This document shows, piece by piece, positions 20,057 to 33,089 of a stretch of DNA of 33,833 nt. The DNA comes from Bacteroidales bacterium. Lineage in GTDB: Bacteria > Bacteroidota > Bacteroidia > Bacteroidales > UBA12170. The translations under genes were made by a program, and so were the position numbers. The stretch covers positions 1 to 33,833 of the forward strand of contig JAFGHU010000063.1 of assembly GCA_016929955.1 (NCBI GenBank). Reading direction: 5' to 3'. The notes under the pieces were generated by a model, which was not told where the DNA came from, did no database searches, and saw only the letters and a list, made by a program, of their open reading frames with translations. Positions within the stretch are counted from its first letter, which is position 1; the number at the start of each line of letters is the position of its first letter.

Positions 20057-20527
20057 TTATTTTAAATCTTCTGTTGAATAAAGTTCTATAATTTCATCTG
20101 TCGAAATATTACTATAATCGAGCAATGCATCTACATCCGGATCGTTATATAAACTATTTACATCTGTAACTGAAGCCAATTCGCTATAGATTATATCTTC
20201 GTCATAATTCTGAAAATCATTTATTGCCATCAATTCTTCGATGGTAAAATCAATTCTAGCATCCTTATTTATATCTGCATCAAAAACGAATATCCAAAGT
20301 GCCAATAAAAGTAGGGCGGCTACCGCCAGCGAAATTAGTCTAATCCAATTGTTTTGAGCCAACTTAAACGAAATAGTTTTCGTTTTTTTCTTTTCTTCGA
20401 TCGGTAAATTGGCAGTAAAATTATCGAAATAACCAGCCGGAGGGCTAGTAAAACCGGCATTTTTCGATCGATTAACATGAGCGCTAATCTTTGCTTCTAT
20501 TTTATTATCTTTATTCATACCATTCAT
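20057..20527 (-). CDS. One-TM protein, candidate anti-sigma factor
   Basis: The 156 residues have a cytoplasmic N-terminus of about 60 residues including PPAGYFDNF, one membrane helix around 62-82 (LISLAVAALLLLALWIFVF), and an acidic extracytoplasmic C-terminus rich in Asp/Glu. The N-terminal part shows no zinc anti-sigma HxxxCxxC motif. The layout, and the place between an ECF sigma factor gene (24 bases upstream) and a Spy-like gene (6 bases downstream), suggest a membrane anchor that holds the sigma factor and reads a periplasmic signal. This is inference; no anti-sigma family is recognised. Confidence 0.65.
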   Translation of the reverse strand: MNGMNKDNKIEAKISAHVNRSKNAGFTSPPAGYFDNFTANLPIEEKKKTKTISFKLAQNNWIRLISLAVAALLLLALWIFVFDADINKDARIDFTIEELMAINDFQNYDEDIIYSELASVTDVNSLYNDPDVDALLDYSNISTDEIIELYSTEDLK

Positions 20528-20551
20528 TTGACTAAGGTAAGGTTAATTAGT

Positions 20552-21100
20552 TTAATCTACTTCTAAGTTTTTTTCAATTTTTTTAACCGCATGGTGATAG
20601 GAAGCTTTTAATGCGCCTACCGATGTTTTCAAAATCGACGACATTTCTTCGTATTTCATTTCATCATAATATTTCATATTGAAAACAATGCGCTGTTTAT
20701 CGGGCAAGGTCAGCAAGGCCATTTGTAATTTTTTCTCTATCTCCGTACCATCAAAAATATTATCGTCTTCCAGGTTTTGCTTTAATTCATCACGATAATC
20801 TCCCTTGGCTGAAAAAACATAACGCTTTCTTTTTTTCAAAAAATCAAACGTTTCGTTAGTTGCTATGCGATAAATCCAAGTATACAGATTAGAATCAGAG
20901 CGAAAAGCAGCTATATTTTGCCAAATTTTAATAAACGTATTTTGTGCAATATCGTTTGCATCTTCGTGCGAGTAAACCATACGACGTATATGCCAATAGA
21001 TACGCTCTTGATAGTGTTGTACCAAGAGATTAAATCCTCTATTGCTTGTATGCTTTTCGCTAATAAGTCGGATTATGTCTTTGTCGCTATAATTTTCCAA
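20552..21100 (-). CDS. ECF-type RNA polymerase sigma factor
   Basis: The 182-residue protein has sigma region 2 at about 22-92 (DANDIAQNTFIKIWQNI, TWIYRIATNETFDFLKKRKR) and region 4 at about 120-174 (LLTLPDKQRIVFNMKYYDEM, KYEEMSSILKTSVGALKASY, HHAVKKIEK). It would direct RNA polymerase to a small regulon, probably envelope stress given its partners. The start codon is TTG (21100-21098): an in-frame stop lies only three codons upstream, and the first downstream ATG would delete most of region 2. A TTG start may keep its level low. First gene of a three-gene operon. Confidence 0.9.
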   Translation of the reverse strand: MENYSDKDIIRLISEKHTSNRGFNLLVQHYQERIYWHIRRMVYSHEDANDIAQNTFIKIWQNIAAFRSDSNLYTWIYRIATNETFDFLKKRKRYVFSAKGDYRDELKQNLEDDNIFDGTEIEKKLQMALLTLPDKQRIVFNMKYYDEMKYEEMSSILKTSVGALKASYHHAVKKIEKNLEVD

Positions 21101-22540: not shown

Positions 22541-22858
22541 ATGGACAATTATTCAATTTCTATAATCCCTGACCAGGATGCTGCAAAAAATTCGGCACGG
22601 ATAGAATTGAGCGGAGAGCTATCTATTCAGTATATCCACGAAATTAGAGTTCAGCTCGACAAAGCCATCGCTAATTTCAAAAATATCGAACTGTTTATAA
22701 GCGATGTGTATATTATTGATTTAACTATACTTCAATACTTTATATCTTTAAAAAAATCGGAAAATGTGCTAAATAAATCTATTAAATTTTCATTTGAATT
22801 AAGTGAAGGTTTAAAGGAACTTATTGAACATGCGGGGTTTAACCATATTGAAAATTAA
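22541..22858 (+). CDS. STAS-domain protein
   Basis: A 105-residue single STAS domain of the SpoIIAA/MlaB type: beta-strands ARIELSGELS and NIELFISDVYIIDLT, then a helix ILQYFISLKK. The usual phosphorylated Ser/Thr after an Asp corresponds to Thr62 in IDLTILQYF. Such domains act as phospho-switches or binding modules. It is the first gene of the che operon and ends 5 bases before the CheY-like gene, so its role is probably tied to this system. No matching serine kinase or PP2C phosphatase is encoded in the window. Confidence 0.78.
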   Translation: MDNYSISIIPDQDAAKNSARIELSGELSIQYIHEIRVQLDKAIANFKNIELFISDVYIIDLTILQYFISLKKSENVLNKSIKFSFELSEGLKELIEHAGFNHIEN

Positions 22859-22863
22859 AACGA

Positions 22864-23229
22864 ATGAAAAAAACAATCTTAATTGTAGATGATTCTGAAA
22901 GCATTAGAAAACTGGTTCAGTTTAATCTAAATAATGCTGGCTTTAGAGTGTTGGTAGCCAATAATGGAATGGATGCATTGAACTATTTTAAGGAAGAAAG
23001 CATACATTTACTTTTAACAGATTTACATATGCCGGTTATGAATGGCATGGAACTGATCAAGGAAGTCAGGAAAATAGATCAGTATAAACATATTCCCATC
23101 TTGTTTTTGACAACGGAAACCCAAATTGCGCTAAAAAAAGAGGCGAAAAATGCGGGAGCAACCGGTTGGATTGTGAAACCATTTGTATTTGATAAACTTT
23201 TAGCAACTATTCATAAAGTATTACGATAG
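22864..23229 (+). CDS. cheY: CheY-like response regulator
   Basis: A stand-alone 121-residue receiver domain. Acidic pair in ILIVDDSES (D9-D10), phospho-acceptor Asp53 in LLTDLHMP, conserved Thr near 83-84 in LFLTTET, and Lys105 in VKPF are all present, so it should accept phosphate from CheA. It sits between the STAS gene and cheA. Its downstream target is unknown, since no flagellar switch genes are in the window. Confidence 0.9.
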   Translation: MKKTILIVDDSESIRKLVQFNLNNAGFRVLVANNGMDALNYFKEESIHLLLTDLHMPVMNGMELIKEVRKIDQYKHIPILFLTTETQIALKKEAKNAGATGWIVKPFVFDKLLATIHKVLR

Positions 23230-23242
23230 ACTCTATTAAAAC

Positions 23243-25393
23243 ATGCAAGACTTAATAAATAGTTTTTTAGATGAAGCAGCTGATCTTTTAGGGGATTTAG
23301 AAGATTCTCTTTTAACTTTGGAGGAAAATCCGACAGATAAAGATGCTGTTCATCGTGTATTTAGAGTTATGCACACACTAAAAGGTAGTGGCGGCATGTT
23401 TGGTTTTAGTGCTGTTTCTAATTTTACACACCATTTAGAAAGTATTTATTTTAAAATCCGAAACGAAGAACTCGAGCTAAGCAATCAAATCTTTTCGCTA
23501 ACACTTAAATCTGTAGATTTAATTAAAGAACTTTTAAAATCGACCGGAAAATTAGCACCTTCTGTGCAAGCCAATTACGATGCGCTGGTAAAAGAAATAA
23601 AAGCGGTTTCGGATGTCAAAGAACCTCTGCCCGATTTATCACAAGAAAATTCAGAACTACAGGAAATTAATAAAAAAGCAAATTTCAATACCTATTATAT
23701 TCATTTCGAGCCCAATACAGAAATACTTCAAAACGGTACAAATCCTCTGTATTTAGTCGATGAATTGGTTGCTCTTGGCGACTCGAAAGTTATATTGTAT
23801 ACCGATAATATACCTCAAACAAAGGATATCCAATTGGAAAACTGTTACGTTTCGTGGGCTATTATTTTGGCTACTAAAGCAGAAATTGGCGACATTATGG
23901 ATGTCTTTATTTTTGTTGAAGACGATAGTCAAATCGATATTATCAACCTAAGTCCTTATAATCTATTACAATTTCCTGAATTCATAAAAGCCATACAAAG
24001 CTTTGAAAATCAGAGTATATCGCCAAATATTAATGAATTACAAGCACTGGGCGAACAACTGGTAGCTAAAAGTCAATGGGCCGAAAATGAAACTAAAAAT
24101 GAGGACTCCGCAAAGCTTGCCACCGAGAAAGCGAACAAAGAAGCGAAAAACAGTTTAAACGAATCAAAAATAAATGGCGATAAACCCGATATTCCGGACA
24201 TCGTAAAAAAAACAAAAACAGCCATATCCACTTTTTCTACCATTAGAGTCTCAAGTAAAAAAATTGAAACATTAATGAATCTGGTAAGCGAAATGGTTAC
24301 CTCGCAAGCCCAACTTAACTTAATTGCCGAAAATGAACAAATTCCTGAACTTTCCGAAGCTGTTGAAAACCTGGAAAAATTAACACGTGAATTGCGTGAT
24401 AATGCATTTGAGATTTCGCTAATCCCAATTGAAACTATGTTAACGCGATTTAAACGACTTATTCGCGATTTATCAACTGAATTAAAGAAAGATATTAATT
24501 TTACCGCTGTCGGAGCGGATACCGAATTAGATAAAACAATTATTGAGAATTTAAGCGATCCGCTTTTGCATTTGTTCAGAAATGCCATAGATCATGGGAT
24601 TGAAGATAAAGCAACTCGCCTTAAGAAAGGAAAGCCTGAAGTTGGAACAATTACACTAAGTGCTTTTTATTCGGGAACCAATGTATTGATTCAAATCAGT
24701 GATGATGGTGCAGGGATAGATCCGGATATTATCCGAAAAAAAGCGATCGAAAAAGGAATTATCAACGCAAATGATCTATTAAGTCGGAGCGAAATCATTA
24801 ACCTGATAACAAAACCCGGGTTTAGCACTTCAGAATCGGTAACTGATATTAGTGGTAGAGGAGTTGGTATGGATGTGGTAAAGAAAAACATCCAAAAAAT
24901 TCAAGGCGAACTGCAAATTGAAAGTACGCTCGGAGCGGGCACAACTTTTACCCTAAAACTTCCGCTTACGCTTTCTATTATTGATGGATTAATCGTTTAT
25001 ATTGAAGAAACACCCTATATCATTCCTATTCCATTAATCGATAAAATAAGACCGATAACACATTCGGCAATTGAAAAGGCTTTTAATAACACATTAATTG
25101 TAGATAACGAACAACTGCCTTTTATTTATCTCCGACAACATTTCGGTATTACAAGTGTGGCGCCCGAAAACGAACTGCTAATTGTTGTAAATTATGGAAT
25201 TAAAAATATGGCCATTGTTATTGATCGTATGGAAAAACAAACGCAGGTTGTAGTAAAATCGATGGGGAAACACTTTCAACATCAAGACATCATTTCAGGG
25301 GTGTCAATTATGGGCGATGGAAAAATTGCCCTGGTATTAGATACGAATAAAATCATAAATTCAATTGACAAATCAGCACATATTGTAAAATAA
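23243..25393 (+). CDS. cheA: Chemotaxis histidine kinase CheA
   Basis: The 716 residues carry the full CheA layout. P1/Hpt domain at about 1-105 with phospho-acceptor His44 ([12 protein letters not shown]). A P2-like region at about 147-245 ([30 protein letters not shown]) resembles the CheY/CheB-binding domain. An acidic and lysine-rich linker (about 275-325), P3 dimerisation helices at 335-395 ([19 protein letters not shown]), the ATPase P4 with N-box Asn447 ([11 protein letters not shown]), DDGAGID and GRGVGMDVV, and the CheW-like P5 from about 578. Cytoplasmic, in arrays with MCP and CheW. It passes phosphate to the CheY-like protein and CheB. Confidence 0.96.
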
Positions 25394-25401
25394 ATAGTTT
25401 T

Positions 25402-27060
25402 ATGAAAAACTTTATCAATAATCTAAAAATTTCTCACGCTTTAATTGCTGGTGCACTTATTATTGTTGCATTTACTGTAGTGCAAAACCTAAATAGCATT
25501 AAAAACATTGATAAATTCAATAACTATATCAATATTATTAATAATAAACGTGTTAAGCCCATGAAAAACCTTAATGTTATTCTGGATGCTTATACGGTTA
25601 AGATTGTTGATGCCGCAAATAAAGTTGCCATCCAATCGATTAGTTGGGAAGAAGGATACAGCATTGTTGCAGCGGCACAAAAAAGTATTAAAACAAATTG
25701 GGCGCTTTATATTTCGACGCTGAATAAGGAAGAATCAAAAAACCAGATTCTCGCCTTTGAAAAAATAGAGGATAAAACCAAACGTCAAATAAACCGACTT
25801 AGTCAGATATTAGCAGGCAAGAATGAAGCAGAATTGGAATCTTTTATTAAAAAAGATTTGTATCCCGCAATTGAGCCTCTGGCAAATCAGGTTGTACGCA
25901 TGACTGAAGATTTACAAAAATCGATTGATCAAATATCGAGCGATACAGACAAACTTTATCAATCCATTTTTTCTAAAACCAGAATGCTGGGAATTATAAC
26001 CATGTTGATTATAATTTCTATGATGATCTTTCTGATTACCAGTATTCGAGCAACCTTAAAAAAAGCAAACACCACCATAAAAAAAATTGCCGATGGCGAT
26101 TTAACGGTAAAAATTGTTGGTTTTGGAAAAGACGAAATTGGCGAGTTAATGTTTGGAGTTAAAGGACTGGTTAGAAACTTGAGATCGACAATGGAAACCA
26201 TAAACAACGCCGCAAATAGCATATTAATTACAAGTAATGAACTTAGCTCCAGCAGTCAACAAATTTCATCGGGCGCTACAGAACAAGCAGCATCAGTTGA
26301 AGAAATTGCCGCTTCGATGGAAGAAATTTCGGCCAATATTATGCAAAATGCCAAGAATTCTCAGATAACCGAAAAAATATCAACCCAGGCCGGCGAGGAA
26401 TTCGAAAGCGGAAGAGAAAATATTGATACTACCGTAAAATCTATTCAAACCATTGCATCGAAAATATCAATTATTGGCGATATTGCCTTTCAAACCAATA
26501 TTCTGGCATTAAATGCGGCTGTGGAGGCTGCTCGTGCCGGTGAACATGGCAAAGGATTTGGAGTGGTAGCAGCAGAAGTTGGTAAACTTGCTGAACGAAG
26601 TAAAATAGCTGCCGCCGAAATAAACAACTTATCAAAAACGGGTGTTGAGCAAAGCTTAAAATCGAAGGATTTGCTAAAGATTGCGCTTCCTTCCATAAAT
26701 AAAACGATTAAATTAATAAAAGAAATTAGTCTGGCAAGCAACGAACAAAGTTCAGGTGTCGATCAAATTAACTCCGGTATTCAAACACTGAATCATGTTA
26801 CACAACAAAATGCTGCAGCAAGCGAACAAATGGCTACTGTTGCAGAAGAATTGGCGGCACAGGCAGAACAATTAAGTAATAGTATACGCTTTTTTAATAT
26901 CGGAAGCACTACAAAGAATAAGATCGAAAAGAAATCCACAGCGCCAAAATATATTGCGGAGAAAGCTAAAAGTCGTCCGGTAATCAAAGAGAATCCAAAG
27001 GGTATTGATTTGGATTTAGATTCGAAGGATGATTTGGATAATGAATTTGAAACTTTTTAA
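25402..27060 (+). CDS. Methyl-accepting chemotaxis protein
   Basis: A transmembrane receptor of 552 residues: TM1 at about 12-28, a periplasmic four-helix-bundle-like sensor at 29-194, TM2 at about 195-214, a HAMP domain (213-265, [20 protein letters not shown]), and the signalling domain with the conserved tip [20 protein letters not shown] (361-380) and EVGKLAERS. Gln/Glu-rich methylation helices flank the tip ([20 protein letters not shown]). A flexible acidic tail (510-547) ends in EFETF, similar to the NWETF pentapeptide that tethers CheR/CheB in enterobacterial receptors. The ligand is unknown. It is the only receptor in the window and lies within the che operon. Confidence 0.95.
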
Positions 27061-27186
27061 TTGTCTTAGGCTTAATTAAATAGCAATACAATGTGTGTAG
27101 AATTAGGAAAAAAGTCTAAAATAAATCAATATAAAGTATCTTTATTTAGCATGACTTTATCTTACGCTTAAAAAAAATAGTGACCG

Positions 27187-27645
27187 ATGAAAAAACTAGA
27201 TTCATATTTGACATTCAAGCTAGGAAATGAAACATTTGCTGCCAATGTAGCACATGTATTACATATTCTAGGGATACCCGAAATAACTAAAATGCCCAAT
27301 TCGCCGGATTATCTGCTCGGCGTTATGAATTTACGCGGACAAGTTATTCCGGTAATCGATCCGCATCCACGCTTTAAAATTGAGCCCCAAGAAACAAGCA
27401 AAGACAGTTGTGTATTGGTATTGGAAGTGAGCGATGAGGATGAGGAAGAATTTTTAATTGGCAGCTTAGTCGATGCCGTTTTAGAAGTTATCCAGATTAA
27501 TCCTGAAGAAATATTGCCGCCACCGGAGCTGGGCGTTCAGTTTAATGCGCAATATATCGAAGGCGTTATTCAGCAGGGCGAAAAGTTTATTTTAATCCTC
27601 AATATTGTAAACGTTTTTTCTGAGCTAAGTTCTAGTTTAAAATAA
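27187..27645 (+). CDS. cheW: Coupling protein CheW
   Basis: The 152 residues form one CheW domain: YLTFKLGNETFAANVAHVLH near the start and the diagnostic LLGVMNLRGQVIPVIDP block. It links the receptor tip to CheA in the signalling array. A 126-base gap separates it from the MCP gene, the largest inside the operon, containing TATCTTTA (27139-27146), one base off a -7 element; a weak internal promoter is possible. cheR begins 2 bases after the stop. Confidence 0.93.
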   Translation: MKKLDSYLTFKLGNETFAANVAHVLHILGIPEITKMPNSPDYLLGVMNLRGQVIPVIDPHPRFKIEPQETSKDSCVLVLEVSDEDEEEFLIGSLVDAVLEVIQINPEEILPPPELGVQFNAQYIEGVIQQGEKFILILNIVNVFSELSSSLK

Positions 27646-27647
27646 TT

Positions 27648-28499
27648 ATGGTTAATAATCCTATATCGCTATATAAAGAGGAACTTAAACAAGCCGAATT
27701 TGAGTTAATCAGTAAATACGTAAATAAAAATTTTGGAATAAAACTACCTGATCATAAACGTATTATGCTGCAAGGCCGACTGATAAACAGGCTCATAAAA
27801 TTAAACTTGCCCAATTTTAAAGCGTATACTGATTATGCTTTTTCGGAGCAGGGTCGCATATCGGAATTACCCCTTATGATCGATTATATCTCGACAAATA
27901 AAACTGATTTTTTTCGTGAATCCGTTCATTTTGATATTCTGAAAGAAAAGTGTATTCCCTGTTTTCTGGAAAATTCAAATACAAAACAGATGCAAATCTG
28001 GAGTGCGGGTTGTTCAAGTGGCGAAGAAGCATATACCATTGCTATGACTTGTGCCGATGAAGAAAAATCGAAATTGAATTTTGATTATACGATTTTGGCT
28101 ACAGACGTTTCTTTGCGTATGCTGGAAAAAGGAAAAAATGCGATATACCCATTAAAAGATATAGAATCGTTTTCTGAAGAAACCAAAAAAAAATATTTAT
28201 TAAAAAGTAAGGATAAAGAAAAGAGCGAAGTGCGCATAAAAAAGGCTTTACGAGACAAAGTGCGGTTTCAGTGGCATAATCTTATGGATCAAGAATATAA
28301 AATTCATCAAGAATTCGATATCATTTTTTGCCGTAATGTCCTTATTTATTTTTCAAAGGAAGATCAACTACACGTGCTTACCAATCTCTATAAAAATTTA
28401 AAAACAGGAGGCTTTTTGTTTTTAGGCCACTCTGAGTCGATTAATCATTTTAATTTGCCTCTTATAAATATAGGTCAAACCGTTTTTCAAAAACTATAA
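27648..28499 (+). CDS. cheR: Chemotaxis methyltransferase CheR
   Basis: It methylates receptor glutamates using S-adenosylmethionine. The 283 residues have the N-terminal helical CheR domain with STNKTDFFRE (82-91), the SAM-binding IWSAGCSSGEEAY (117-129), ILATDVSLRML (149-159) and FDIIFCRNVLIYF (223-235). The next gene starts 4 bases later. The receptor tail EFETF could dock on the CheR beta-subdomain. Confidence 0.95.
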   Translation: MVNNPISLYKEELKQAEFELISKYVNKNFGIKLPDHKRIMLQGRLINRLIKLNLPNFKAYTDYAFSEQGRISELPLMIDYISTNKTDFFRESVHFDILKEKCIPCFLENSNTKQMQIWSAGCSSGEEAYTIAMTCADEEKSKLNFDYTILATDVSLRMLEKGKNAIYPLKDIESFSEETKKKYLLKSKDKEKSEVRIKKALRDKVRFQWHNLMDQEYKIHQEFDIIFCRNVLIYFSKEDQLHVLTNLYKNLKTGGFLFLGHSESINHFNLPLINIGQTVFQKL

Positions 28500-28503
28500 C
28501 ACT

Positions 28504-29370
28504 ATGGTCAACACCAATCTGAATTCAATTGAAGCTGAGAATAATGGACTTAAAAATGAGAATAAGCTCTTAATAGATCAGCTTAAAATTGTAAATAAAA
28601 AACTCGAGGAATCGGAATCTTTTAAAAGTCATTTCCTGTCGAATATATCCAATGAAATAGTAAACCCTTTTACTTCAATTTTGGGTATTTCAAAAAATAT
28701 TGCCAATTTAAAAGAAGCAGATATAGAGCAAATTAAAACCATGGCTAATTTAATTCACAGCGAAGCTTTCGATTTGGATTTTCAGCTCAGAAATATCTTT
28801 GCGGCAGCCAAAATTGAATCGGGCGAAAATTTCCTGGAATTGGTTACGCTGGATATACAGGATTTTATAGAAGAAATAACAAATGGCCTTAAAATTAAAG
28901 CGGAACGACGAGCTATTACTTGCAATATTAATTACGAAATAAACCAAAAATATTTTGTTACCGATGCGGATAAATTTAGAATGATATTGACAAACCTAAT
29001 CATGAATGCGATCAATTTTTCGATGGAAAAGCATAGCATTAAATTATATATAGAATACAATAAAGAAGGGTTCTTGTTTAAAATCAATAATCAGGGAAAC
29101 CTGATTTCCAGCGAAGACACAAAAATTATATTTGATCGGTTTGTTAAACTCGACGACAATATTAATTCGCTCAATCAGGGTCATGGATTGGGCTTATCCA
29201 TTATTAAAGATTACGTAGAACTATTGGGTGGTAGCATAAATTTTGAAAGCAATGAAAACGAAGGAACTACTTTTTTCCTCAAACTCCATTCGCTCGAAAT
29301 GAACGAAAAGAATTTATTTATGGAAGATGAAGATTTATTTGTTGCCGACGACAATTCAGAACTTTTTTAA
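28504..29370 (+). CDS. Histidine-kinase-like protein lacking the phospho-acceptor His (pseudo-kinase)
   Basis: The 288 residues contain an N-terminal coiled-coil (1-45), a HisKA-like helix pair and a HATPase domain, with no membrane segment and no sensor domain. In the H-box, FLSNISNEIVNPF (44-56), the expected His of S-H-E is Asn50. The N-box NLIMNAINFS (164-173) and G2-box GHGLGLS (226-232) are present, but the G1-box reads NNQGNL (195-200) where DxGxG is expected, removing the Asp that contacts adenine. Autophosphorylation therefore looks impossible and ATP binding doubtful. It sits in the middle of the che operon between cheR and cheD, so a scaffold or regulatory role is likely. The residue changes are seen directly; the role is inferred. 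Confidence 0.82.
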   Translation: MVNTNLNSIEAENNGLKNENKLLIDQLKIVNKKLEESESFKSHFLSNISNEIVNPFTSILGISKNIANLKEADIEQIKTMANLIHSEAFDLDFQLRNIFAAAKIESGENFLELVTLDIQDFIEEITNGLKIKAERRAITCNINYEINQKYFVTDADKFRMILTNLIMNAINFSMEKHSIKLYIEYNKEGFLFKINNQGNLISSEDTKIIFDRFVKLDDNINSLNQGHGLGLSIIKDYVELLGGSINFESNENEGTTFFLKLHSLEMNEKNLFMEDEDLFVADDNSELF

Positions 29371-29376
29371 AACGCT

Positions 29377-29847
29377 ATGATTAATCTCTCAAAAATATTT
29401 ATCTATCCCGGAAGTCTGGAAGTTACCGTTCAGCCAAAAACGCTAACTACGATTTTAGGCTCTTGTGTTGCCGTATGCATTTGGGATAAGAAACTAAAAT
29501 TTGGAGGGATGAATCATTTTATGTTACCTTTATGGAATGGCGAAGGACTTGCTTCACCAAAATACGGGAATATTGCTATCGACAAATTGATTCGAAAAAT
29601 GATTAATAACGGGTCGAGTTCGGAAGACTTAGAAGCTAAAATTTTTGGAGGGGGAAATGTCATCGAATCAACGAATAATGTTTATCGAATAGGCGAACGA
29701 AATATAGAAATTGCCTATTCCAAATTAGCCGAATATGGCATTCAGGTTACAGGTTCAAGTACAGGTGGTAAATTAGGACGAAAGATTTTAATGAATACCT
29801 CTAATTTTCAGATCTTACATAAATTTATTGCCAAACAAAACTTTTGA
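29377..29847 (+). CDS. cheD: Chemoreceptor glutamine deamidase CheD
   Basis: CheD deamidates receptor glutamines and in some systems binds the CheC phosphatase; no cheC is seen here. The 156 residues have the family motifs LGSCVAVCIWD with the catalytic Cys30 and GGMNHFMLP with His47; Thr24 keeps the spacing of the known Thr-Cys-His triad. KYGNIAIDKL and KIFGGGNV follow. Its stop codon overlaps the cheB start (TGATG), so translation of the two is coupled. Confidence 0.94.
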   Translation: MINLSKIFIYPGSLEVTVQPKTLTTILGSCVAVCIWDKKLKFGGMNHFMLPLWNGEGLASPKYGNIAIDKLIRKMINNGSSSEDLEAKIFGGGNVIESTNNVYRIGERNIEIAYSKLAEYGIQVTGSSTGGKLGRKILMNTSNFQILHKFIAKQNF

Positions 29848-30917
29848 TGATGCGCGAAAAAGAAATAAAAGTATTGATTGTTGACGATTCTGTTAGTATT
29901 CGCAACATGTTGGCGAATTTCTTGCATAACGACCCGTATATTAAAGTGATTGGGAAAGCTGAAGATCCTTATCAGGCTGCTGCTTTTTTAAAAACACAGG
30001 TGCCTGATGTAATTACGCTCGATATTGAAATGCCAAAAATGGATGGCCTTACTTTTTTACGAAAAATTATGGCGCAACATCCCATTCCTGTTGTTATTAT
30101 ATCGAGTTTAACGAAAAAAGGAGCAAATGAAACCATCAAAGCTTTGGAATACGGAGCTGTTGAAATTATTCAAAAACCTTTTGTTGAAGAAGGAAAAACA
30201 AAAGAAGGAATTCAATTAATTATAGAAAAGGTAAGGGCTGCAAGTTTAGCAAAAGTATCGGCCAGAACACAAAATATTCTTAAAATACCACCTAAATTTT
30301 CTGCTGATGCTGTTCTTAAAAAAAGGCCTTCAATAGCCGGCACTTCGTTCGCAGATCAAAAAATTATTGCTCTTGGCGCATCAACCGGAGGCACAATAGC
30401 CATTCAACAAATTATTCAGAATTTACCTATTTCGGCGCCTCCCCTTTTAATTGTACAACATATGCCTGTGCATTTTACCAAAGCTTTTGCCGATAGATTA
30501 AATCAATTGTGCTCCATTTTTGTAAAAGAAGCCGAAGATGGCGATATCATTAAAAAAGGACATGCTTATATTGCAAGAGGCGATCGTCACCTAACCATAA
30601 AAAAACAAGGAAACGAACTTGTGGCTCATCTACTGGATGGACCGCTGGTAAACCGACATAAGCCTTCGGTTGATGTTTTGTTTAGAAGTATGGCCAACCA
30701 TGTGGGTGCTAAGGGAATAGGTATTTTACTTACCGGAATGGGCGATGATGGAGCCAGAGGATTACTTGAAATGAAAGAGGCTAAAGCAAATACTATTGTT
30801 CAAGATGAAAAATCGTGCACCGTTTTTGGTATGCCTCGCGAAGCAATTAAAATAGATGCACATAAAATGGTTTTAGGCTTAGCTGAAATTTCCGAATTGA
30901 TATCAAAAATTAATTAA
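29847..30917 (+). CDS. cheB: Chemotaxis methylesterase CheB
   Basis: The response regulator-esterase removes receptor methyl groups. The N-terminal receiver has phospho-acceptor Asp59 (ITLDIEMPKMDG), and the C-terminal esterase shows the catalytic triad Ser179 (GASTGG), His205 (VQHMP) and Asp301 (GMGDDGA) with the spacing known from Salmonella CheB. The chosen start is the ATG at 29847, overlapping the cheD stop by one base; the next codon is also ATG (29850) and equally possible. With CheR and CheD it completes the adaptation enzymes. Confidence 0.96.
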   Translation: MMREKEIKVLIVDDSVSIRNMLANFLHNDPYIKVIGKAEDPYQAAAFLKTQVPDVITLDIEMPKMDGLTFLRKIMAQHPIPVVIISSLTKKGANETIKALEYGAVEIIQKPFVEEGKTKEGIQLIIEKVRAASLAKVSARTQNILKIPPKFSADAVLKKRPSIAGTSFADQKIIALGASTGGTIAIQQIIQNLPISAPPLLIVQHMPVHFTKAFADRLNQLCSIFVKEAEDGDIIKKGHAYIARGDRHLTIKKQGNELVAHLLDGPLVNRHKPSVDVLFRSMANHVGAKGIGILLTGMGDDGARGLLEMKEAKANTIVQDEKSCTVFGMPREAIKIDAHKMVLGLAEISELISKIN

Positions 30918-30932
30918 GAGACTAAAGTAACT

Positions 30933-32465
30933 ATGATAAAAAGTGCTAAAATATTAATTGTAGATGATGATAGTTTAGGCCTTCGTTTGATGAGAAAAGC
31001 CTTGGAAGGCAAAGGACATAAACTTGCTACTGCAAATAATGGAAAAACGGCTTTAACAAAAGCCTGGGCCAACAGTTTTGATATTATCATTTTGGATGTT
31101 AAACTACCTGATATTGATGGCTTTCAAATCTGCGAAAAACTAAAGCAACACCCTGCAACTGTAAATGTTCCGGTTGTTTTTCTTACCGGATTAAACAATC
31201 ATCAGGATGTTGTTAAAGGATTTGAGGCCGGAGCTGTCGATTATATTTCCAAACCTTTTAATTCTGATGAATTTAATATCCGCATCGACAATCATCTTAA
31301 ACTGAGAGATTATTCGAAAACTTTAGAAGAATCAGCACGAATATCGCAGGAAGCGAAAATAAATATCAGCACTTTTATTTCGTCTTTAGCGCACGAACTT
31401 AAAAACCCGCTCAATTCCATTGTTGGGTTTTCTGAAATATTACAGGGCAAAAACATTCCTGAAGACGAGAGAATAAATTATTTAAAACATATTAATAGTA
31501 GTGGACTCGACTTACTAAATCTGCTTAACGATTTGATTGACTTATCTAAAATTGAAGCCGATTTATTAGATATCCATTTTTCCTCCGTTTTTTTAAATAC
31601 AGAGCTAAGCGATATTAAAAAAAGTTTTACTGATAAATTATTTAAGCTTAGAGGTGATGATGTAAAATTAAAACTAGAGCTCGGTAACGACGATCCTAAA
31701 TTTGTTTTGTTTACCGATATATTGCGCTTTACACAAGTATTTAATAACCTGATAGACAACGCTATAAAATTCACTACAAAAGGAACAATCACCTTTGGAT
31801 ATCAAATAAAACCAAGCGATCGAATTGAGTTTTTTGTTCGAGATACCGGCATCGGAATGAAAGAAGAAGAGCTGGAAAATATTTTCGAAGAATATGATAT
31901 AGCGCATCAAAGAATGCAGGTTACGCCTGGAGGAAAAGGCATCGGACTGGCCATTTCAAAAAAAATTGTGCGTATATTAAAAGGTGAAATTGGAGCAAAT
32001 TCAGTGTTCGGAAAAGGATCTGAGTTTTATTTTAATTTGCCCCGTTTAAAAGCAGATTCCGATGAGGTTAAAAACATTGGAAGCAAACAAGAGCTTTACA
32101 ATTGGGAAGGAAAAAAAATACTCGTGGCAGAAGATGTAATGGTAAACTTTCTCTTTTTTGTTGCCTTGTTTAAGCAAACAAACGTGGAACTTTATCATGC
32201 TGAAAATGGATATCAGGTTTTGGATATCTTGAAAGAGAAAGAGGTAGATTTAATTTTAATGGATATGGTGATGCCTGAATTAGATGGCCTCGCAACAACT
32301 AAAGAAGTCAGAAAAACACATTTACATCTGCCCATAATTGCTCAAACCAGTCTGACCGACCGAACGGATAAAGACGATATTTTTAAAGCCGGCTGCAACG
32401 ATATTATATCAAAACCTATAAAACCCAGAATTTTATTAAACAAAATCAATCGTTTTTTCGAATAA
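30933..32465 (+). CDS. Hybrid sensor kinase, REC-HisKA-HATPase-REC
   Basis: A 510-residue soluble protein. Receiver 1 at 5-122 (Asp55 in ILDVKLP, Lys107 in SKPF), a short helical linker, HisKA with His154 in SSLAHELKNPL, HATPase with N-box Asn276 (NNLIDNAIKF), RDTGIGM (303-309) and GKGIGLAIS, then receiver 2 at about 394-510 (Asp444 in LMDMVMP, Lys494). All catalytic residues are intact, in contrast to the kinase-like gene at 28504. It has no input domain apart from receiver 1, so it probably receives phosphate from CheA or another kinase. It starts 15 bases after cheB. Confidence 0.92.
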   Translation: MIKSAKILIVDDDSLGLRLMRKALEGKGHKLATANNGKTALTKAWANSFDIIILDVKLPDIDGFQICEKLKQHPATVNVPVVFLTGLNNHQDVVKGFEAGAVDYISKPFNSDEFNIRIDNHLKLRDYSKTLEESARISQEAKINISTFISSLAHELKNPLNSIVGFSEILQGKNIPEDERINYLKHINSSGLDLLNLLNDLIDLSKIEADLLDIHFSSVFLNTELSDIKKSFTDKLFKLRGDDVKLKLELGNDDPKFVLFTDILRFTQVFNNLIDNAIKFTTKGTITFGYQIKPSDRIEFFVRDTGIGMKEEELENIFEEYDIAHQRMQVTPGGKGIGLAISKKIVRILKGEIGANSVFGKGSEFYFNLPRLKADSDEVKNIGSKQELYNWEGKKILVAEDVMVNFLFFVALFKQTNVELYHAENGYQVLDILKEKEVDLILMDMVMPELDGLATTKEVRKTHLHLPIIAQTSLTDRTDKDDIFKAGCNDIISKPIKPRILLNKINRFFE

Positions 32466-32477
32466 TTGCAAGCAACA

Positions 32478-33089
32478 ATGTCAAAAAAGAATAGCATTTT
32501 AATTGTAGACGATCTAGAATCTAATCGTATTTTATTGGAAAAGATACTGTCGAAAGAAGGTTATAAACTTATTACTTGTGCCGAAGGAAACGAAGCAGTA
32601 AAAATGGCACTCGAAGAAGATATTGATCTTGTCCTTTTAGATATTATGATGCCAAAAAAGGACGGATTTATGGTTTTTGAAGAATTGAAAGCCAACTCAA
32701 AATCAGCAGAAATACCGGTTATTTTTATTACCGTGCTAACCAACGATCAAGACTTATTAAAAGCCTTTAAAATGGGTGCCGTCGATTATATCACTAAACC
32801 ATTTACACCAACCGAAGTGCGTATCAAAATAAAAACACAAATCGAATTGCACAATAGTCGAAAATTAATTGCAGGCAAATCAAATGGAACTTATGACTTT
32901 GTTTCAGATTCGCATCAAAATACAATATCAGCTATAAACGAGCAACTTATAGCTATAAAAAAACAAATCAAAAATCTAAACGAAACCGCTTTAAATCAAG
33001 AAGATAAAAATCAACTCAGAGATTCCCTCGCATTTTCTATTGAAGTTGAAGAAATGCTACAACAATTAGTTGGCAAAACTTCAAATTAA
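32478..33089 (+). CDS. Response regulator with helical C-terminal extension
   Basis: The 203 residues comprise a receiver domain (1-125; Asp55 in LLDIMMP, Thr in FITVLT, Lys107 in TKPF) and a 75-residue tail that is charged and mostly helical (INEQLIAIKKQIKNLNE, SIEVEEMLQQLVG), with no DNA-binding or enzymatic motif. The tail may be a dimerisation or partner-binding helix pair. The ATG at 32478 is preferred over the TTG at 32466, giving a start 12 bases after the hybrid kinase stop. It is the last gene of the operon and a candidate phosphorelay end point for the hybrid kinase. Confidence 0.88.
   Translation: MSKKNSILIVDDLESNRILLEKILSKEGYKLITCAEGNEAVKMALEEDIDLVLLDIMMPKKDGFMVFEELKANSKSAEIPVIFITVLTNDQDLLKAFKMGAVDYITKPFTPTEVRIKIKTQIELHNSRKLIAGKSNGTYDFVSDSHQNTISAINEQLIAIKKQIKNLNETALNQEDKNQLRDSLAFSIEVEEMLQQLVGKTSN

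Follow-up and report, generated by a model that had tools for sequence, protein, structure and literature searches.

What does a protein built like a histidine kinase do in a chemotaxis operon when its phospho-accepting histidine is missing? The question is raised by one gene in the window, by which we mean the whole stretch of 33,833 nucleotides analysed here, a single contig of a Bacteroidales draft genome (241 contigs, 82.5% complete), the named relatives of which belong to Bacteroidales and Marinilabiliales. The gene, which we call pHK for pseudo-histidine kinase (28504–29370, plus strand, as are the cheY-like, chemoreceptor, cheR, cheD, cheB and hybrid kinase genes), is an intact open reading frame running from ATG to TAA and encoding 288 amino acids: an N-terminal coiled coil, a DHp domain, a CA domain and a flexible acidic tail. 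The H-box reads SNISNEIVNPF (residues 46–56; 28639–28671). Alignment to HK853, SrrB and GacS placed Asn50 (codon AAT, 28651–28653) at the position of their phosphorylated histidine, with Glu51 and Asn54 forming an E-x-x-N motif; the nearest possible alternative acceptor, His43 (28630–28632), lies seven residues N-terminal of Asn50. The N-box (residues 154–168; 28963–29007; Asp154, Asn164 and Asn168) and the G2 box (GHGLGLSI, residues 226–233; 29179–29202) are intact, and in the degenerate G1 box (NNQGNL, residues 195–200; 29086–29103) the aspartate is replaced by Asn196. Compared with an active HisKA kinase, the window protein thus lacks the acceptor histidine and has an incomplete ATP site. 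The reading frame is tightly packed between cheR, which ends at 28499, and cheD, which starts at 29377, with gaps of 4 and 6 nt. On all these points, the preliminary description of the gene, made from the window alone, was borne out.

Pfam matched the protein to HATPase_c (71.5 bits), GHKL and, below the cut-off of 26.9 bits, HisKA (21.6 bits) alone; the scan returned no CheC, CheX or CheZ family match. Neither Pfam nor the AlphaFold2 model, in which a helix starting at residue 4 runs into the DHp domain, revealed a PAS or other sensor domain. The model, built from a 40-sequence alignment (mean pLDDT 78.9), consists of helices 4–67 and 74–106, the CA domain and, from residue 270 on, a tail of low confidence (29311–29367; pLDDT below 50) that ends in S-E-L-F. 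The second DHp helix (residues 74–106; 28723–28821) bears the signature EAFxLDFQLxNIFxAAKIExGE. Searching solved structures with Foldseek gave DivL (4q20) as the top match, followed by HK853–RR468 complexes, including HK853 H260A, with RetS also among the matches. VIA-align put HK853 (Z 24.1, rmsd 3.2, 230 residues aligned) and DivL (Z 23.7, rmsd 3.8, 231 aligned) in a tie. The predicted fold is that of an ordinary DHp–CA kinase core, and by itself says nothing on function.

The surrounding che operon (22541–33089) encodes, in order, a 105 amino acid protein, a CheY-like receiver, CheA, a chemoreceptor, CheW, CheR, pHK, CheD, CheB, a hybrid kinase and a receiver-domain protein. Two of these are candidate partners of pHK: the CheY-like receiver (22864–23229; PF00072, 96.7 bits), whose gene precedes cheA in most loci, and, through its receiver domain, CheB (29844–30917), identified from its reading frame and encoded after cheD in most loci. 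The genes that directly flank pHK are cheR (27648–28499), whose position is conserved, and cheD (29377–29847; PF03975). The chemoreceptor (25402–27060; MCPsignal and HAMP) ends in NEFETF, a pentapeptide-type tail. The 105 amino acid protein at the head of the operon (22541–22858) has no Pfam match, but many related clusters show weak matches to it at this position. At the other end, the gene that follows the hybrid kinase (32466–33089) encodes a receiver domain and a C-terminal helix-rich part, and similar matches are also found upstream of cheY in many of the related clusters. Upstream of the operon on the minus strand (20057–21100), a sigma-factor-like frame is followed by a small one-transmembrane protein, a pair whose sequences look like an ECF sigma factor and its anti-sigma factor.

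Several genome sets supplied orthologues of pHK: 60 relatives, 295 genomes of the order (searched with a protein query and then with a profile, which recovered five genomes that the single-protein query had missed), 395 genomes each of the class and the phylum, and the best 80 of 359 relatives in the GTDB contig collection. In the order, the profile search found 70 loci in 68 genomes scoring at least 213 bits; the next kinases, with longer frames, scored at most 185. Residue counts refer to 136 distinct orthologue sequences, and counts for the tail to the 133 with a complete C-terminus. Residue 50 is asparagine in all 136, a conservation far above what chance would give, and is encoded by AAT in 77 and AAC in 59, each one base from a histidine codon. 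These sequences span many genera and include cultured strains of Marinilabilia, Anaerophaga, Thermophagus and Alkaliflexus. Asn54 and Pro55 of the H-box are likewise invariant, and Glu51 is present in 135. The same invariance holds for Asn97, Phe99, Ala102, Glu105 and Gly107 in the region of the second DHp helix, for Asp154, Asn164 and Asn168 of the N-box and for Arg212, and the three glycines of the G2 box are present in all orthologues with letters at those positions. One further copy (L213; G190:C136) is broken by a stop just past its H-box (RNEIINP), which may reflect decay or an assembly error in a draft (G190) that is 73% complete, and was excluded from the counts.

Ordinary decay, a recent mutation or a sequencing error might be suspected given the draft state of the source genome, but the same asparagine in 136 distinct sequences from many genera, cultured strains among them, refutes a recent mutant and leaves this family of explanations a negligible chance. 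Close orthologues with an intact histidine, which would mark the window copy as such a mutant, were sought in the whole set and none was found. In a tree of 30 pHK members and 16 histidine-bearing kinases, the family fell on one side of a single branch with support of 100/100, although the outgroup comprised the nearest matches and che-cluster kinases only, and a histidine-bearing sister may lie beyond this sample.

The G1 box behaves differently. Its aspartate, Asp196 in the alignment, is kept in 123 of the 136 orthologues and replaced by asparagine in 13, namely nine from the window's genus plus L018, L197, L209 and L210, of which L018 clusters with the window's genus in the tree (support 98/95). 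Family-wide loss of the ATP site was therefore rejected. Because the aspartate is so widely retained while Asn50 is invariant, loss of the histidine and damage to the ATP site are separate events: judged from the aligned sequences, the former is old and general, the latter later, local and secondary in the window's clade. The preliminary description had taken both changes together as a selected loss of catalysis rather than decay, and had proposed that an orthologue alignment show whether both are conserved. For the histidine this reading holds, with the asparagine conserved throughout, the frame kept and the position in the operon fixed; for the G1 box it does not, its degeneracy being confined to a minority. 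Since the essential histidine is asparagine in all 136 relatives, pHK has been retained for a function other than that of a kinase.

Could the acceptor simply have moved seven residues upstream to His43? A similar shift has been suggested for a hybrid kinase of Caulobacter that lacks the usual histidine (PMC11481889), His43 is present in 127 of the 136 orthologues, and most members keep all ATP-site boxes. Nine members from several genera (L016, L041, L055, L193–L195, L205, L206 and L208) nevertheless carry asparagine (eight) or glutamine (one) in its place, whereas Asn50 never varies, and the ATP-site aspartate is lost in 13. We consider a relocated acceptor very unlikely; the conservation of His43 may come from docking or helix packing.

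The position and occurrence of pHK tie it to chemotaxis. Among 80 named loci, cheR lies directly upstream of pHK in 76 of the 78 with sequence there, and cheD is the next gene downstream in 78 of 78. Loci L064 and L065 have an extra histidine kinase gene between cheR and pHK, whose product scores about 284 bits against the window's hybrid kinase. Across the order, 68 of the 81 genomes that encode a CheA dimerisation domain carry pHK, against 0 of the 214 that do not (Fisher p ~5e-54, a value that overstates independence, as the genomes are related). In several of the 13 CheA-bearing genomes without pHK, cheD is missing from the che cluster as well; in two others (L151 and L156) cheD is present without pHK, and in L156 it comes directly after cheR. 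Searching beyond the order at E 1e-60 gave two more matches in the 395 class genomes and none in the 395 phylum genomes, in draws that contained genomes of the order and with six candidates scored per genome, so the family may be spread more widely. pHK is thus a member of a conserved family without the phospho-acceptor histidine and, in the arrangement cheR-pHK-cheD, a fixed component of the che operon in many Bacteroidales-type bacteria. It combines a DHp–CA fold with an acceptor position that is non-histidine throughout its orthologues, as in pseudo-histidine kinases of the DivL kind, and adds to this known class a new family in a new setting. A literature search for asparagine-type pseudo-histidine kinases or Bacteroidales che pathways, with most subscription journals outside its coverage, returned nothing relevant.

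Which protein might pHK act on? The preliminary description had suggested that it serves as a brake on, or a dimer partner for, the hybrid kinase three genes downstream (30933–32465). That kinase is there and intact, with the Pfam architecture REC-HisKA-HATPase-REC, but it is not a conserved partner: just 6 of 67 informative clusters, mostly from the window's near relatives, have a hybrid-kinase match after cheB, and outside the genus such a kinase is rarely a neighbour. A general partnership between the two was rejected on these counts. A related hybrid kinase is also present in L150, a che cluster without pHK. More broadly, pHK could be the heterodimer partner or brake of some histidine kinase, the downstream hybrid or another, to which it would donate an inert DHp domain. 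The family has no acceptor of its own, RetS is among the fold matches, and RetS–GacS provides a precedent for control of one kinase by another. Against this stand the rarity of the hybrid kinase, the fact that CheA is the sole kinase that is a constant neighbour, and the long branch (100/100) that parts the family from che-cluster kinases, and we regard such a role as unlikely.

By analogy with characterized proteins, the most likely role of pHK would be to switch off or read a chemotaxis response regulator. We tentatively favour, at somewhat under an even chance, the first: that pHK is a dedicated pseudo-histidine kinase phosphatase for a che response regulator and ends the CheA signal. The DHp dimer would dock the regulator of the pathway, either the CheY encoded next to cheA or the CheB receiver, both being candidate targets, as an ordinary kinase does, and would catalyse only the reverse reaction, with E-x-x-N on helix 1 orienting a water that hydrolyses the aspartyl phosphate. 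The CheY and CheB receivers of the window retain the acidic, Asp, Thr/Ser and Lys residues, as read from their translated frames. HisKA-type phosphatases carry Thr or Asn at H+4, the position of the invariant Asn54. In the HisKA kinase CrdS, phosphatase activity depends on the asparagine at H+4 (N375) whereas kinase activity does not, and the reverse holds for the adjacent glutamate (PMC3510030). The acceptor mutant H371A of CrdS still dephosphorylates its regulator, whose phosphorylated form had a half-life of 2.6 min with H371A, compared with 0.7 with wild type, 47.6 with N375A and 53.5 alone; E-x-x-N is also the motif of CheX (PMC3510030). pHK shares with the bifunctional kinases CrdS, HK853 and EnvZ both the fold and the E-x-x-N/T followed by proline after the acceptor position. 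It differs in lacking the acceptor, so that the forward reaction is not expected, and in having Ile or Val at H+3, where they usually have Arg or Lys.

A phosphatase of this kind might stand in for CheC, CheX or CheZ, which have this role elsewhere. In the 40 pHK-bearing genomes scanned, CheC and CheZ were absent (0/40 each) and CheX was found in one. In other lineages CheD is usually partnered by CheC, and pHK adjoins cheD much as CheC does there. The resemblance to CheC, CheX and CheZ extends to the helix-borne E-x-x-N and the proposed role, but pHK, unrelated to them in fold and sequence, derives from a kinase. Retention of Glu51 and Asn54, the absence of CheC and CheZ, the near-absence of CheX and the position beside cheD together lead us to favour a phosphatase that acts on CheY~P or CheB~P. 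The lack of known phosphatases is, however, not specific to pHK-bearing genomes, because 11 of the 13 CheA-bearing genomes of the order without pHK also lack CheX. Nucleotide on the CA domain may tune the activity in most members, a control that was probably lost with the damaged G1 box in the window's clade.

Some observations count against a phosphatase. The phosphatase activity of PleC requires its histidine (PMC3510030), and Glu51 is retained even though the equivalent glutamate of CrdS serves kinase activity. DivL, similarly altered, binds DivK~P and stabilises it against hydrolysis rather than dephosphorylating it (PMC4211667). A real, if less probable, possibility is accordingly that the core of pHK senses phosphorylated CheY or CheB as DivL does DivK~P, and relays this state to CheR, CheD, CheA or the receptor array through the CA domain or the tail, with no catalysis. 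DivL is the top Foldseek match, tying with HK853 in the second alignment; it has neither kinase nor phosphatase activity and binds an ATP analogue weakly (PMC4211667). Both proteins keep the DHp–CA fold, have the acceptor replaced across orthologues (Tyr550 in DivL) and are candidate readers of a single-domain response regulator. The damaged G1 box shows that strong nucleotide binding is dispensable in the window's clade, and the conserved tail suggests a binding partner. A reader, though, need not preserve Asn54, which is invariant, and pHK lacks the PAS domains that give DivL its phospho-specific binding. DivL also acts on CckA in Caulobacter cell-cycle control, whereas pHK has asparagine instead of tyrosine, no sensor domain and a place in a che operon.

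The tail of pHK resembles those of the receptors encoded in the same clusters. The last residue is phenylalanine in 129 of the 133 complete members, with glutamate at −3 in 109. Of 54 receptors from these clusters, 43 end in E/D/Q-x-F, mostly [YF]-E-x-F (as in NEFETF in the window and in the receptors of L056–L134), and such endings are rare in the other cluster proteins. Receptors bind CheR and CheB through a pentapeptide of the NWETF type, in which the aromatic residues at positions 2 and 5 are both important, that at position 2 (−4 from the end) being central for CheR binding (PMC7390727). The tails of pHK are likewise acidic and flexible, but the −4 aromatic is missing in 130 of 133, including the window protein (NSELF), so for nearly all members we rejected a true pentapeptide and speak of resemblance only. 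The three with an aromatic at −4 carry full pentapeptide-like endings (DFEKF in L015; DFDKF in L123 and L131). In the relevant subdomain the window's CheR, unlike Pseudomonas CheR1, can be aligned to Salmonella CheR without gaps. By mimicking receptor tails, the conserved ending E-x-F may keep the putative phosphatase near the receptor and adaptation complex; that it tethers pHK to CheR, CheB or CheD is a reasonable guess, no more.

Among the 40 genomes with pHK, 39 encode GldL and three gave a FliG_C match, so that the output of the che pathway is probably gliding or some other non-flagellar process, although GldL, which also serves type IX secretion, is no proof of gliding. The fuller picture, in which a mostly non-flagellar lineage ends its chemotaxis signal by a pHK phosphatase for CheY or CheB whose receptor-like C-terminal tail tethers it to the adaptation machinery, we hold to be somewhat unlikely as a whole. 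If true, it would give che signalling a terminator of a kind distinct from CheC, CheX, CheZ and FliY. Well-documented pseudo-histidine kinases are few, with DivL the main worked example; the pHK family offers a case in which loss of the acceptor is fixed in all 136 sequences and which its genomic position and distribution link to a single well-understood pathway. Because the protein is small and soluble, with obvious candidate partners, it would be a convenient test of a kinase core reduced to a phosphatase or reader, and it bears on signal termination in the che pathways of these Bacteroidota, where flagellar FliG and the known CheY phosphatases are mostly absent.
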